A stretch of 38,319 nucleotides of DNA, from positions 1-38,319 of IMG/VR virus record IMGVR_UViG_3300037234_000305. One strand, given 5' to 3'. Under the pieces are notes generated by a model. That model was not told the DNA's origin, ran no database searches, and was given only the letters and a program-made list of their open reading frames with translations. Source of the DNA: a virus. Both the position numbers and the translations under genes were made by a program. Below, in pieces: positions 5,042-37,660 of the stretch; the stretch's first letter is position 1, and every line of letters starts with the position of its first letter.

Positions 5042-5078
5042 GTATTGAATCCCCAGTATTGACAAATACGTATTGACA
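5042..5078 (+). repeat. Three GTATTGA direct repeats with 14-bp period
   Basis: GTATTGA starts at 5042, 5056 and 5070, and the last two copies extend to GTATTGACA. The middle copy contains the -35 box of the promoter at 5059-5087. Evenly spaced direct repeats over a promoter are a typical operator for ribbon-helix-helix repressors, and the downstream gene encodes a protein with such a domain. Autoregulation is therefore a reasonable inference. Confidence 0.6.
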
Positions 5079-5087
5079 GATTAAAAT
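5059..5087 (+). promoter_or_regulatory. Consensus promoter, 6 nt before the start codon
   Basis: TTGACA (5059-5064), a 17-bp spacer and TAAAAT (5082-5087). The ATG of the NUMOD4-RHH gene begins at 5094, exactly where transcription is expected to start, and no Shine-Dalgarno sequence lies between. This predicts a leaderless mRNA. The same geometry is seen before 12870 and 16231. Confidence 0.7.
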
Positions 5088-5093
5088 AAAACC

Positions 5094-5312
5094 ATGAATG
5101 AAAAATGGAAAGATATGAAGGGATACGAGGGGCTTTATCAAGTCTCTAACTCTGGGAAAGTCAAAAGAAAAAAGAAGGATCAGCAACTCCAGGTAAAAAT
5201 GACTCCTGAATTTAAGGATAAGCTTAGAAAGGCTAGTGAAAAGATGGGGATTAGTATGACTGGTTTTGTTGAGGATGCTATTGATGAGAAGATTGCCAAT
5301 GGCTCCAAGTAG
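5094..5312 (+). CDS. NUMOD4 motif fused to a ribbon-helix-helix domain
   Basis: A 72-aa protein. Residues about 3-23, with WKDMKGYEGLYQVSNSG, match the NUMOD4 motif, a small DNA-contacting module normally found at the N-terminus of HNH homing endonucleases. No HNH nuclease follows. After a basic KRKKK linker, residues about 31-68 (LQVKMTPEFKDKLRKASEKM then FVEDAIDEKI) form a strand and two helices typical of Arc/CopG ribbon-helix-helix proteins. It is probably a DNA-binding regulator that reused a homing-endonuclease DNA-reading module. It sits under the triple GTATTGA repeat and overlaps the nuclease gene. Confidence 0.7.
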   Translation: MNEKWKDMKGYEGLYQVSNSGKVKRKKKDQQLQVKMTPEFKDKLRKASEKMGISMTGFVEDAIDEKIANGSK

Positions 5313-9389: not shown

Positions 9390-9411
9390 GTAGGTATAGG
9401 AGATTTTGAAG

Positions 9412-9606
9412 ATGAATGAGAAATACCAAGCAAAGCCAGATTTAGTAAATGGCAAGTGGAGAATATTAGTGCATGTTGACGGTGATGTATTACATTTAGG
9501 GAAAATGATTGACCCGCCATTAATGAGATATACTGAATATGACAAAGAAGAATTAGCCGTCCAGCATATAAAAGGTTCTGATGGTTTAGAGTTAATGAAG
9601 TACTAA
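9412..9606 (+). CDS. Hypothetical moron protein, 64 aa
   Basis: AGGAG at 9398-9402 sets the ATG at 9412; an in-frame TTG at 9406 is less well placed. The protein is beta-rich with no membrane segment or known motif. It is the first gene after the promoter shared with two other accessory genes, so it is probably expressed independently of the surrounding operons. Function unknown. Confidence 0.65.
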   Translation: MNEKYQAKPDLVNGKWRILVHVDGDVLHLGKMIDPPLMRYTEYDKEELAVQHIKGSDGLELMKY

Positions 9607-9636
9607 ACCAGCCCTACGGGGCAAAGGATTTAAAAA

Positions 9637-9876
9637 ATGACCACTGAATTAAAAAACTGGATAGAAGAAAGAAAAGACAATCCTGATGACCTGGACGTTA
9701 TGGAAATATTAAAAGAAATAGATGCTGAAGTATCAATGGATTCCAGAATTGCCGGAACTTTATTGACTGTTTTGTTGTGTGAGGATATACCTGAACCAGT
9801 GGAGACAGAATGTCTTGGAGCTGTTTATGAGGATAGGTATGGGACACCACATCAAATACATAAGGGGAAATCATGA
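9637..9876 (+). CDS. Hypothetical acidic helical protein, 79 aa
   Basis: AAAGGA lies 8 nt before the ATG. The protein is acidic and mostly helical in its first 50 residues (WIEERKDNPDDLDVMEILKE), with one Cys pair of no obvious motif. It follows the 64-aa protein after 30 nt that contain a short GCCC/GGGC hairpin, and overlaps the next start (ATGA). Not recognised. Confidence 0.6.
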   Translation: MTTELKNWIEERKDNPDDLDVMEILKEIDAEVSMDSRIAGTLLTVLLCEDIPEPVETECLGAVYEDRYGTPHQIHKGKS

Positions 9877-9968
9877 GTATAATAGCAGGAATAATTTTAG
9901 TAGTGGTTATGTATAAGTTTGCATATGTATCATTCTGTGAAGCACATTTGACAGGAGGTAAAGAATAA
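9873..9968 (+). CDS. 31-aa single-helix membrane microprotein
   Basis: AAGGGG precedes the ATG at 9873, which overlaps the previous stop. Residues about 3-19 (IIAGIILVVVMYKFAYV) form one membrane helix; the tail is short and polar. The end of this gene carries the -35 and spacer of the promoter at 9948-9977. Likely an inner-membrane accessory peptide of unknown target. Confidence 0.55.
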   Translation: MSIIAGIILVVVMYKFAYVSFCEAHLTGGKE

Positions 9969-9977
9969 TTGTATACT
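9948..9977 (+). promoter_or_regulatory. Strong promoter of the non-coding region
   Basis: TTGACA (9948-9953), an 18-bp spacer and TATACT (9972-9977), both close to consensus. The predicted start, near 9984, coincides with the first base of a 6-bp hairpin. No protein start follows for more than 400 nt, so this looks like a dedicated RNA promoter. Confidence 0.7.
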
Positions 9978-9983
9978 ATCTGT

Positions 9984-10120
9984 ATTAGGTTTGAACCCCT
10001 AATTTGACATAACGTGCATTACCGATAGAGCTTATTTTCAAAACAGTGCTATCATTTAGACTTATATGCACGTGGTCTATTTGGTTGGTTCAACGCTGTT
10101 TTGGATGTAAGCTTTTTTTT
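9984..10120 (+). ncRNA. Predicted pseudoknotted non-coding RNA ending in a T8 terminator
   Basis: No credible reading frame. Paired elements found by eye: ATTAGG/CCTAAT (9984-9989 with 9998-10003); a long stem 10027-10046 with 10096-10115 (20 positions, one mismatch, a few G-T pairs) that runs into T8 at 10113-10120; inside it TAGAC/GTCTA (10057-10061 with 10075-10079) and GTTG/CAAC (10084-10087 with 10091-10094). The 13-nt loop of the TAGAC hairpin contains ATGCACGT (10066-10073), a perfect 8-bp match to ACGTGCAT (10012-10019) upstream, which makes a pseudoknot. With its own promoter this looks like a compact structured RNA of about 137 nt. The family is not recognised. Confidence 0.6.
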
Positions 10121-10413
10121 GTTTCCTTTCAGTTTCCTAGTCGGTGTTTTGTAAGGGTAGACCGTAAATCTAACAAGCTGGTGAGAATGAAGCAATGAGC
10201 CAACTGCGATTGTGGGAATTAGATTGAAAGAGTATGTCAGAGGTGCATCCCTTAAGAATCAAACTTGTTATGGAATAGTAAATCTAATAACAAATAGTTA
10301 AGAGTGAAGTGATTCAGGTTAGTAGCTCTTTATAGTCTAAATACTTAAATAGTATAGAATATGTCTAGTAGTGACAGGTTCTGTTTTAGGTATCTTTAAA
10401 AAAGTTAAGGAGA
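10121..10413 (+). other. Non-coding stretch with further hairpins, upstream of the methylase
   Basis: No gene is seen. GTTTCCT repeats at 10121 and 10132. Possible helices: AATCTAA/TTAGATT (10167-10173 with 10219-10225), TTGTTAT/ATAACAA (10265-10271 with 10287-10293) and CGGT/ACCG (10142-10145 with 10161-10164). GTAAATCTAA occurs twice (near 10164 and 10278), so TTAGATT has two possible partners, as in a switching leader. It may be a second part of the RNA or a long leader of the methylase gene. I see none of the conserved core elements of a group I intron. Confidence 0.4.
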
Positions 10414-10419
10414 ATGGGT

Positions 10420-11163
10420 TTGAAATACATGGGAAGTAAGGCACGAATAGCCGATGAAATATTACCTATAATCCTGAAGGATAGAAAGCCAGATCAATGT
10501 TATACCGAGACTATGGTAGGCGGTGGAAATCTTATCGATAAAGTAGATGGATGGAGAATAGGTGCAGACTTTAATCATAATGTAATTTTAGCACTTGAAG
10601 AAATTAGAGATAATATTCACAGGATACCTAAGAACAACAAAGAGTTTACAGAATTGCAATATAACAAATTAAAGCAAGATAGTAAGATATGTAATAGACA
10701 TGATATAGCTTTTTGTGGTTTCGCTTATTCTTATGGCGGTAAATGGTTCGGAGGTTGGTGTCGAGATGGTGAAGATTTTAGAGATTATGTAAAAGAAGCT
10801 TATTGCAATGCTTTCTATCAATATGAACACCTGCAGGATGTAGAATTGATTCATAGCTCATATTTAGATTTAAACATCCCTAAAGGATCTATAATTTATT
10901 GTGATCCTCCATATAAAGATACTACTAAATACAGTAACGCTTTTGATCATGAAGAATTTTGGGATTGGGTGAGGGTTAAAGAATCAGAGGGATATCAAGT
11001 TTTTATTTCTGAATATCAAGCACCTACAGATTTTACTTGTATATGGGAGAAAGAAATAGTTTCAAGTTTAACTCAGGATACAGGATCTAAAAAAGCAATA
11101 GAAAGATTGTTTACACTTAATCCAAGAATTAAACCAATACCAAAACAACCATTATTATTCTAA
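10420..11163 (+). CDS. D12-class DNA adenine N6-methyltransferase (Dam-like)
   Basis: A 247-aa enzyme that transfers methyl from S-adenosylmethionine to adenine N6 in DNA. The TTG at 10420 is chosen: AAGGAG (10407-10412) is 7 nt upstream, while the ATG at 10414 would be only 1 nt from it, and the resulting start MKYMGSKARI is the usual beginning of this family. MVGGGNL (about 32-38) is the cofactor loop and CDPPY (DPPY 162-165) the catalytic motif. It is shorter than typical Dam and its target sequence cannot be read from the protein. It may protect phage DNA from restriction or change late-gene control. Confidence 0.85.
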   Translation: MKYMGSKARIADEILPIILKDRKPDQCYTETMVGGGNLIDKVDGWRIGADFNHNVILALEEIRDNIHRIPKNNKEFTELQYNKLKQDSKICNRHDIAFCGFAYSYGGKWFGGWCRDGEDFRDYVKEAYCNAFYQYEHLQDVELIHSSYLDLNIPKGSIIYCDPPYKDTTKYSNAFDHEEFWDWVRVKESEGYQVFISEYQAPTDFTCIWEKEIVSSLTQDTGSKKAIERLFTLNPRIKPIPKQPLLF

Positions 11164-12759: not shown

Positions 12760-12854
12760 ACTGCTCAAATATAGACTGCCCGAATAACTCGGGTGGTTGC
12801 TGTATAGCCGATGAGTGCCTATTAAATAGAGAAATTGACAATAACAAAAAATAG
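12756..12854 (+). CDS. 32-aa Cys-rich microprotein
   Basis: The TTG at 12756 overlaps the previous TGA (TTGA), with GGAG about 9 nt upstream. Five Cys in 32 residues: NCSNIDC, a CC pair, and DEC. The regular spacing and overlap suggest a real gene and a metal-bound fold. The promoter of the head operon (12835-12863) begins inside its 3' end. It resembles short Cys-rich peptides often seen at phage module borders. Confidence 0.45.
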   Translation: MNCSNIDCPNNSGGCCIADECLLNREIDNNKK

Positions 12855-12863
12855 TAATAAACT
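12835..12863 (+). promoter_or_regulatory. Head-operon promoter, 6 nt before the start codon
   Basis: TTGACA (12835-12840), a 17-bp spacer and TAAACT (12858-12863). The ATG of the gpW-like gene is at 12870. Transcription should start on or next to that A, leaving no room for a ribosome-binding site, although AAGGG lies in the 6-nt gap. Predicted leaderless mRNA. Confidence 0.65.
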
Positions 12864-16194: not shown

Positions 16195-16224
16195 TTGACA
16201 AAACATAAACAATAGAGGTATTAT
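16195..16224 (+). promoter_or_regulatory. Promoter 6 nt before the protease gene
   Basis: TTGACA (16195-16200), an 18-bp spacer and TATTAT (16219-16224). The ATG at 16231 lies at the expected transcription start; TAGAGG would be largely upstream of the RNA. This is the third example of this architecture in the window. It would boost protease-scaffold, decoration and capsid expression. Confidence 0.65.
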
Positions 16225-19024: not shown

Positions 19025-19504
19025 ATGAGAAAAGTTTCTATTGTTGGTGGTGGAGTTGGTTTTAAAAATGCACTTGTCACAGGTTGTGAAATCTGGACAG
19101 TTCAAAGTGTGTTTCCTAAACTGGGGAAAGCTGATAAAGTTTTCCGGCTCCATGACCATGAGTTACTTTTTGATATAATAGATAATACGGAGATTGTCAC
19201 TTTTGATGATCTCCCTGTTATAAAGATGGTTGAGTCATTCGGCAGTTATTTCCATTCATCTATTTCTTGGATGGTTGGATATGCAGTTTTGACAGGTTGC
19301 AAATATATAGAATTCCATGGCATTGATATGTTATTGGAGTCTGAGTATAGTGACCAGAGAGACGGATTATTCCGAATGATTGGAATATCCCAGATGTTAG
19401 GTGTTCGGTTTATTGTTCCTGATTGGTCTGGAGTATTTATGAAAGAAAAATTATATGGATTGGGAGAAATTGAAAATGGCAGAAGCAACAGAAAAAGTAT
19501 ATGA
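19025..19504 (+). CDS. Rossmann-like protein resembling MptE / DUF115
   Basis: A 159-aa protein. The N-terminus (KVSIVGGGVG) is a Gly-rich nucleotide-binding-type loop. FHGIDMLLESEYSDQRDG at about 97-114 and G-V-R-F-I-V-P-D-W-S near 125-134 match conserved parts of a Rossmann-like group related to MptE-like / DUF115 proteins found in many phages. In cells, relatives handle pterin or sugar-nucleotide-type substrates. An enzyme-like protein among head genes is unusual; it may modify a virion or host glycan, which is inference. Confidence 0.55.
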   Translation: MRKVSIVGGGVGFKNALVTGCEIWTVQSVFPKLGKADKVFRLHDHELLFDIIDNTEIVTFDDLPVIKMVESFGSYFHSSISWMVGYAVLTGCKYIEFHGIDMLLESEYSDQRDGLFRMIGISQMLGVRFIVPDWSGVFMKEKLYGLGEIENGRSNRKSI

Positions 19505-31704: not shown

Positions 31705-32976
31705 ATGAGCGATATATTAACACCCCAAGGTTTAGAACCTGCAGGAGCTATACAGGATACGGATACTCAAGAAATTTTCCAAGCTGGAAGCGGTGGAGAC
31801 AGGGATAATAAACAAACCACGATGGCAGCTCAAAAAATATACCATCAGAAACTAACAACCTTCACTCCTAATAATATCATGGAATCTGATGGTTCTGGTA
31901 ATCCACGAACAACATCTATTGCTACTACAGCGATGCAACAAGCTATAAATGATACGAATACAAATAGCAACACTATTGCCACATGGTTAAATCAATCAGT
32001 AAGGACAGATGCAAGCCCTATTTTTGATGGTGCTACAATAGATGGTCATGATGTCGGGGCTGAGTTATCAACACTTAATAATAGAGTCAATCAAGGTGTT
32101 AAAACTACAGATTCCCCAACTTTCAACAATGCTACTATCGGCGGTCATAATATTGATAGTGAATTAGATACTTTAAATTCAAGAGTTAATCAGGGTGTCA
32201 AGACTACAGATAATCCAACATTTTCTAATGCTCAGATCGGTGGAAGAAATATAAACACAACTCTTGATGATATAGAAACTGTTTTAGATCAAGACTTGAC
32301 TACTACAGCAACACCTACGTTTGCAGATGTTATCTTGACAGGATTGGGAGCAATAAAAGCATCTATTATAACTTTAAATTCTAGGGTTAACCAGGCGGTG
32401 TTAACGACTAGTACGCCGACTTTTAACAATGCGAATATTGGTGGGCATGATATTGATGCTGAATTGGACACTCTTAATTCCAGAGTGGATCAAGGTGTTA
32501 ATATTGCAGATACGCCAACATTTGAAGATGTTAATATAAGCGGATTAAGTGGAACTGTTGAGAATAGAATTGAAGGGAATACTTCTGATATTGGGACACT
32601 TGAAACAAAAACACCTCAGTCGTATAAGACTAGTGATGCAGTAACATTTGCAACTGTCAATACTGGTCAGGGTGCTAATGAGTTGTATCCTATGAGCCAG
32701 GGAGTGCGGACTACTGATGCAGTTGAATTCCAAGGAGGAGTTAAAACAGATGGTACATTTCTTAGAAACAAAGCAGATAGTACGACCGCAAATGGATCAG
32801 GACAGTTAGGGTGGAATCATGGACTTTCAAGTAAAATAATTTTAAGAGCTAATTTTACAGCTAGCAATGGAACACAACTTCCTATCAATTGGATAAGTAT
32901 AGGAGCCACAGCTATAACCGCAACTGGGGCTATAGCGGGAGCACCATATACGGTTATTATTGATTATATAGCTTAA
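31705..32976 (+). CDS. Tail fibre protein with 33-aa repeats
   Basis: A 423-aa protein with TAGGAGG before its ATG. Residues about 1-85 are the baseplate-binding head. The middle is built of repeated 33-residue units of the form L-N-S-R-V-N-Q-G-V-K-T-T-D-S-P-T-F followed by N-N-A-T-I-G-G-H-D-I-D, which should form a trimeric rod. The end (about 355-423) is a beta-rich tip. Repeat DNA is near-identical, so length can change by recombination. Convergent with, and overlapping by 3 nt, the outer-membrane candidate gene. Confidence 0.85.
   Translation: MSDILTPQGLEPAGAIQDTDTQEIFQAGSGGDRDNKQTTMAAQKIYHQKLTTFTPNNIMESDGSGNPRTTSIATTAMQQAINDTNTNSNTIATWLNQSVRTDASPIFDGATIDGHDVGAELSTLNNRVNQGVKTTDSPTFNNATIGGHNIDSELDTLNSRVNQGVKTTDNPTFSNAQIGGRNINTTLDDIETVLDQDLTTTATPTFADVILTGLGAIKASIITLNSRVNQAVLTTSTPTFNNANIGGHDIDAELDTLNSRVDQGVNIADTPTFEDVNISGLSGTVENRIEGNTSDIGTLETKTPQSYKTSDAVTFATVNTGQGANELYPMSQGVRTTDAVEFQGGVKTDGTFLRNKADSTTANGSGQLGWNHGLSSKIILRANFTASNGTQLPINWISIGATAITATGAIAGAPYTVIIDYIA
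32071..32568 (+). repeat. 99-bp repeat units inside the tail fibre gene
   Basis: Units beginning with the codons for T-L-N-[N/S]-R-V start at 32071, 32170, 32371 and 32470; a diverged unit fills 32269-32370. The 99-bp phase keeps the reading frame. Such in-frame repeats allow fibre length changes by unequal crossing-over. Confidence 0.7.
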
Positions 32977-33428
32977 AACTCTTTCTTGTAAGAAATATAA
33001 ATTGATCGCTGACCAGAGTTTGAAAATATATCCCTCTGGTCATTTTGAGATATTGCTGAATGATCGCACCATGTGAAAGCTCCTATTTTGAAATTCATAA
33101 ATGTATAATTTATATCAACCCTAAACCTATCTTGTAATGGTCTATAATTATCCCATTTTATTTGATTAAAAACGCTTGTATATGTACCTATAATTCTAAG
33201 ATTTTCTAATCTATAACCTGTTTTTAATTGTATATAGATGCTGTCTTTGCTGTCTTCTTCAAAGGTAATAGAGCCTAAACTTAAGTTATCTATTTCAATG
33301 TTTTTGTGTTCCATTATATTCATTTTATCAATATTCCAACCAACCTCAAACCCAGAAATCAACCCATGATCAATCCCAAAAACACTAATTCCCAAACCCA
33401 TCATAACAACTATCAATATTTTCTTCAT
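32973..33428 (-). CDS. Candidate outer-membrane beta-barrel protein (moron)
   Basis: A 151-aa protein. Residues 1-18 (MKKILIVVMMGLGISVFG) are a signal peptide. The mature part has repeated amphipathic strands, for example SIYIQLKTGY, LRIIGTYTS, FMNFKIGAF and SIYISYKKEF, and ends in Phe, the usual recognition signal for beta-barrel insertion in diderms. GGAGGGG precedes the ATG. It has the third copy of the moron promoter, between two fibre genes on the opposite strand. Likely expressed in the infected cell to alter its surface, e.g. to block further infection; that is inference. Confidence 0.65.
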   Translation of the reverse strand: MKKILIVVMMGLGISVFGIDHGLISGFEVGWNIDKMNIMEHKNIEIDNLSLGSITFEEDSKDSIYIQLKTGYRLENLRIIGTYTSVFNQIKWDNYRPLQDRFRVDINYTFMNFKIGAFTWCDHSAISQNDQRDIFSNSGQRSIYISYKKEF

Positions 33429-37514: not shown

Positions 37515-37586
37515 GTATATCTACCAAGGGAGTTGAACCCCTGCCGACAATAAGGTCTAAGTTATTATCCAGGCCGGTATAGATAC
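37515..37586 (-). ncRNA. Three-way-junction, tRNA-like structure in the operon leader
   Basis: Plus coordinates: outer stem 37515-37525 with 37576-37586 (9-11 pairs with single-base bulges), hairpin AAGGG/CCCCT (37526-37530 with 37538-37542) whose minus-strand loop TTCAACT looks like a T-loop, and hairpin 37546-37553 with 37562-37569 (8 pairs, 8-nt loop). Length is 72 nt, as for a tRNA, but there is no D-arm, anticodon arm of standard size or CCA, so it is not called a tRNA gene. It lies in the predicted leader RNA between promoter 37661-37689 and the attenuator. Confidence 0.45.
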
Positions 37587-37660
37587 TCTTGTCTTTCCAA
37601 GATGTCTTTTGCAACAAAAAAGGATGTGATCAGAAGCTTTATACTACTAATCACTTAATT

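Follow-up and report, generated by a model that had tools for sequence, protein, structure and literature searches.

Genomic context

The window analysed here, 38,319 bases with a GC content of about 35%, is a single virus record (IMGVR_UViG_3300037234_000305). Its head and tail genes are Mu-like and lambda-like (large terminase, lambda-family portal, head protease, tail sheath, tape measure, GpP and baseplate J), and sigma-70-type promoters and AGGAG-type ribosome sites are evident. By sequence comparison the phage is an orphan, unclassified and without close relatives in the collections searched. The best terminase identities are 25–32% in IMG/VR, searched with a terminase profile, and 26–29% among named phages; no close relative was found through the RecE-like, 79-aa, terminase and 137-aa proteins, and no terminase at E 1e-60 is present in a sample of about 700 genomes from two phyla.

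Helicase and RecE-like genes, together with three small ORFs, lie 5' of the region of interest, and a gene for a D12-class DNA adenine methylase (10414–11163, + strand) lies 3' of it; all the surrounding genes point in the same direction. Between positions 9969 and 10413 the + strand contains no ORF longer than 50 aa and no recognisable product, and this stretch, together with a 31-aa ORF at 9873–9968, falls within the widest gap between genes in the window. The 31-aa ORF (+ strand), which is hydrophobic and is a possible membrane microprotein, has a start that overlaps the stop of the preceding gene (ATGA).

Two features at the ends of the window were also recorded. Positions 1–110 carry a promoter-like TTGACA and three GGTTAAC boxes (48, 71 and 98) 5' of a gene with weak HTH similarity, and look like an autoregulated early promoter. 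On the minus strand, 37515–37600 resembles the T-arm half of a tRNA (GGGGTTCAACTCCC); ARAGORN and Rfam find no tRNA there, and the segment is possibly a tRNA relic or an attachment site.

A predicted non-coding transcription unit

The + strand promoter of the unit is of the sigma-70 type and matches the consensus at 11 of 12 positions, with TTGACA at 9948–9953, a spacer of 18 and TATACT at 9972–9977; the 31-aa ORF immediately upstream overlaps its –35 box. A reading of the sequence alone (hereafter the sequence-only reading) had described a near-consensus promoter directed into a geneless stretch, which is borne out by these matches and by the lack of a reading frame in 9984–10120. Five sites with at least 11 of 12 matches occur on the + strand and none on the – strand, against an expectation of 1.05 (s.d. 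1.1) per strand, and three of the perfect TTGACA sites (5059, 9948 and 16195) are situated within or at the edge of gene gaps. Other candidate promoters of the TTGACA type stand in gene gaps at 12835–12863, 5' of the portal gene, and at 16195–16224, 5' of the head protease gene; taken with the sites at 5059 and 9948, they point to a series of short operons. The near-consensus promoter in the gap at 5059–5312 precedes a 72-aa ORF, for which an HNH endonuclease match extends over only about 30 residues.

Seven nucleotides past the –10 box begins a hairpin of 6 bp (9984–10003, + strand; ATTAGG/CCTAAT, loop TTTGAACC), in agreement with the earlier proposal that the predicted start is the first base of a hairpin. 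Counted from this position to the end of the T-run, the putative small RNA would be about 137 nt long (9984–10120, + strand), and no ORF of note is present in the unit, as judged from this single sequence. At its 3' end the predicted fold places a terminator stem, with the 5' arm at 10027–10046 and the 3' arm at 10096–10115 (+ strand), leading into T8 at 10113–10120, and in this conformer an apical hairpin, TAGAC/GTCTA, is predicted at 10057–10079 (+ strand). The stem and the T8 proposed from the sequence are real; pairing extends to 19 of the 20 positions, and the stem takes in the first three T's of the run. The T8 is the only one on the + strand, the stem is worth about –33 kcal/mol, compared with –19 or weaker at every other T-rich + strand site tested, and the fold of 10027–10115 has a z-score of –6.0 relative to shuffles. 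The element at 10027–10120 is the strongest terminator-like element in the window. By sequence, the unit has two features of an independent sRNA gene, its own promoter and a 3' intrinsic terminator, and the dedicated non-coding unit that had been proposed, whose coordinates are all correct, is supported.

Alternative folds of the RNA

In the minimum-energy fold of the full unit (140 nt; –37.4 kcal/mol, z –3.6), an open linker joins the 5' hairpin to the long hairpin of the terminator. Transcripts ending between about 10075 and 10110 prefer a different structure, a nested rod spanning 9991–10093 (about –27 kcal/mol, z –3.2). From its base the rod consists of helix A1, CUAA:UUGG, GAC:GUC, helix A2 and GAUAG:CUAUC, the last forming the upper hairpin predicted at 10024–10053 (+ strand; GATAG/CTATC), whose apical loop takes in a large part of the terminator's 5' arm. 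Helix A2 (10012–10019, ACGTGCAT, with 10066–10073, ATGCACGT; both + strand) is the complementarity of 8 bp on which the sequence-only reading had based a pseudoknot, and the match is exact. A second exact match of 7 bp, overlooked in that reading, constitutes helix A1, in which TTGAACC, a loop segment of the 5' hairpin (9991–9997, + strand), pairs with GGTTCAA (10087–10093, + strand). The pseudoknot itself is not established, A1 and A2 being equally well accommodated in a single nested rod in competition with the terminator.

Since the 5' arm of the terminator (10027–10046) overlaps the upper hairpin of the rod and lies partly inside its apical loop, the two structures either exclude each other, as in a switch, or interlock, as in a pseudoknot. 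In the modelled folds the rod is favoured in the nascent RNA until the 3' arm of the terminator has been synthesised. The interlocked form may be compatible with the stacking energies, which amount to –15.5 for A2, –11.8 for A1 and –27.1 for the terminator when loop costs are left out of the sum. We estimate that, provided the internal loops bend, the seven-base connection at 10020–10026 allows A2 to sit next to the base of the terminator stem.

How often such pairing arises by chance depends on what is counted. The 8-bp match is reached by 3.3% of shuffles if the match may lie anywhere in the two flanking segments (P about 0.03) and by 0.5% if the loops are fixed beforehand, whereas the nested pair of 8 and 7 bp (A2 and A1) is found in 0.05% of shuffles (P about 0.0005); with the loops fixed by the terminator fold, both helices occur in 2 of 100,000, a value conditional on a fold picked after looking. 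The 8-bp match alone is therefore weak evidence, and the nested helix pair is better evidence. When the bases of the terminator are removed, the remainder of the unit folds at –22.0, compared with –13.5 for shuffles (P 0.008), and the duplex between the flanking segments (–25.2) is matched by 0.8% of shuffles and by 0.4% of genomic segments of the same geometry. In fixed windows of 140 nt across the genome the folding energy at this locus is not extreme and alone would not single out the site. Elsewhere on the + strand, the coding region 19251–19390 has a strong fold (z –4.5) that is rarer within the genome than that of the RNA described here.

Search for relatives

The family of the RNA had not been recognised from the sequence, and a scan of Rfam 15 gave no family at or above the gathering cut-off. 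Relatives of the RNA were likewise absent from blastn searches of phages, plasmids and E. coli genomes, from pattern searches in IMG/VR, and from searches with a covariance model over about 1.2 Mb of related loci and, with strict filters, over about 700 genomes sampled from two phyla. In 43 genome contigs, most of them from Winogradskyella, the methylase loci also gave no match to the RNA. As the phage is an orphan, this negative outcome says little.

Several candidate matches were considered and rejected. A relaxed Rfam scan returned mir-590 at E 3.4, a chance match. A similarity of 26–27 nt to Listeria phage P35 (E 2) coincides, by our own reading, with a promoter (TTGCTT-17-TATTAT in P35); the P35 region folds differently (z –1.15), and a pattern scan returned P35 alone. 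Six IMG/VR sequences match the pattern of three helix strands, but five of the six lie in apparent phage tRNA clusters, where they resemble an acceptor stem, and the covariance model ignores all six. For ACGTGCA...TGCACGT, which could be read as tRNA-like, ARAGORN finds no tRNA, and under its model the RNA is neither a tRNA nor a tmRNA. Finally, a resemblance of TTCAAAACAG to the Cas9 repeat/anti-repeat concerns a 10-base word in AT-rich DNA and, having no support, was dropped.

The downstream stretch and the methylase gene

The terminator is separated from the methylase gene by a non-coding stretch (10124–10413, + strand) with weak folding (z –1.25) and no convincing database match, a nucleotide search of plasmids, phages and E. 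coli genomes having given nothing significant. Its interpretation as an insertion-sequence, intron or gene relic was rejected, as there is no Rfam match and all six frames are broken. Regulation of the methylase had been suggested as one possible role of the RNA. In phiV208 and Shewanella phage 1/41, which carry the nearest known phage homologues of the methylase, just a few bases precede the gene and an RNA of this type is absent, so the element is not a conserved methylase leader. Control of the methylase in cis at this locus could nevertheless occur, since no + strand promoter with at least 9 of 12 matches was found between the T8 and the gene. Relatives of the phage methylase, mostly at 45–49% identity, are encoded in dozens of Winogradskyella species, as if this were a core gene of that genus.

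Proposed function and alternatives

The RNA at 9984–10120 is probably a small regulatory RNA or a leader. We tentatively prefer, on the strength of its sequence features, an independently transcribed, structured phage sRNA whose terminator would also limit transcription toward the methylase. The course of transcription, the order of folding and the mode of action that we infer from the observed features and statistics would be as follows. Host RNA polymerase would start at about 9984 from the sigma-70-type promoter and stop at the T8 near 10120, and the product would be a stable RNA about 137 nt long. As synthesis proceeds, its 5' part would fold first as the long nested rod (9991–10093), until the emerging 3' arm pairs with the apical region of the rod and forms the terminator stem; the rod would then either be displaced, leaving a single-stranded linker of 23 nt (10004–10026) between the 5' hairpin and the U-tailed terminator, or be kept as a pseudoknot. 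The released RNA would most likely act in trans, with the linker as its pairing region, and the terminator would limit transcription into the methylase segment, incidentally or deliberately.

A free sRNA is favoured by the near-consensus promoter, drawn from an excess confined to the + strand, by a terminator that is the strongest in the window and carries the sole + strand T8, and by the complete promoter-to-terminator unit without an ORF in the largest gene gap. The rod (z –3.2) and the terminator (z –6.0) also surpass shuffles, as does the non-terminator part (P 0.008), and the arrangement of 5' hairpin, open linker and U-tailed terminator is the usual build of trans-acting bacterial sRNAs. 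Against it, no homologue was found and there is consequently no covariation, and pairing with the 53 translation starts of the phage is not significant (best P 0.19); the best pairing place for the 5' hairpin and linker, before the – strand gene at 32973–33428, is not beyond chance. The T8 terminator may, moreover, merely end the upstream operon (genes 9406–9968).

Alternatively, the element could be a cis-acting leader or attenuator, in which transcripts from 9948 and from upstream stop at the T8 unless the rod, stabilised by a protein, a ligand or a ribosome, keeps the terminator open; read-through would then express the methylase and the small genes as far as about 12759, and termination would yield the short RNA, as in lambda pR'-tR'. 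Competition of rod and terminator for common bases, the lack of a + strand promoter of at least 9 of 12 from the T8 to the methylase and the uniform direction of the genes agree with such a role, for which phage late promoters that precede a terminator overridden by Q (PMC6606751) and RCd22-abiF, where promoter and terminator precede a gene expressed by read-through (PMC12373285), provide precedents. We nonetheless regard a leader as rather unlikely, given the 290 nt between T8 and methylase, the absence of the element before the methylase relatives, the candidate promoters that the portal (12835) and protease (16195) genes have of their own, and the lack of a recognised antiterminator gene. 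It is doubtful that the locus holds only an ordinary promoter and an ordinary, if unusually long, terminator, with extra helices due to chance and a functionless RNA: the 8-bp match by itself occurs in 3% of shuffles, the folding energy of a fixed 140-nt window is not extreme genome-wide and conservation could not be demonstrated, but the nested 8 and 7 bp appear in only 0.05% of shuffles, and 445 geneless nucleotides would be costly for a compact phage genome.

More elaborate roles can be imagined. The RNA could be a protein-binding partner or mimic, for instance a type III-like antitoxin RNA or a decoy directed at a host toxin or RNA-guided system, and its compact interlocked fold and its promoter-RNA-terminator layout, like that of AbiF/RCd22 (PMC12373285), would suit this, as would the reported evasion of ToxIN by a phage through RNA-based mimicry (PMC3475682). 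With no Rfam match (AbiF, RF03085, included), no adjacent toxin-like gene recognised and no tandem repeats of the ToxI kind, we consider it very improbable. A bolder reading is speculative, and we hold it to be improbable: a new class of RNA in an unclassified lineage of Mu-tailed phages, in which the terminator strand would thread the nascent rod to give a doubly interlocked RNA, coupling folding and termination with the exposure of the pairing region, and regulating both in cis, on the methylase segment, and in trans.

Comparison with known systems

Trans-acting sRNAs of phages have their own promoter, a length of about 100–200 nt, a 5' hairpin, an open linker and a U-tailed terminator. The candidate described here is alike in layout in each of these respects. 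Anti-sRNAs of EHEC prophages are one example of phage-encoded trans-acting sRNAs (PMC4104026); the comparison with them is one of layout, as there is no sequence relation and the phage RNA has an interlocked alternative rod. The lambdoid pR'-tR' region (PMC6606751) is similar in that a promoter is soon followed by a strong intrinsic terminator 5' of genes on the same strand. Here, no convincing –10-like pause element is visible by eye at the RNA start, and the later genes have other candidate promoters; no Q gene was found among the scanned proteins, most proteins of the phage being without any match.

The put RNA of HK022, of about 70 nt with two stem-loops, suppresses downstream termination and has no terminator of its own (PMC9378689). 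In both cases a phage transcript begins with a structured RNA, but here a terminator is built into the RNA, which sets it apart from put RNA. Another parallel in arrangement is the RCd22-AbiF unit found in a C. difficile phage, in which an RNA of 132 nt with its promoter and terminator is followed by a gene expressed by read-through (PMC12373285): promoter, an RNA of about 130 nt, a terminator and a downstream gene without its own promoter are found in both. The resemblance does not extend to the AbiF RNA family (RF03085), since the abiF motif is absent and the adjacent gene downstream encodes a DNA methylase and not AbiF.

In layout the RNA matches known kinds, and we describe it as a putative phage small RNA or leader. 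If there is only a promoter and a terminator, the locus is ordinary. Should the RNA be produced and have a function, a structured regulatory RNA would be added for phages lacking close relatives in the searched collections, and the locus would offer a testable case of a terminator strand competing with, or threading, an upstream fold.
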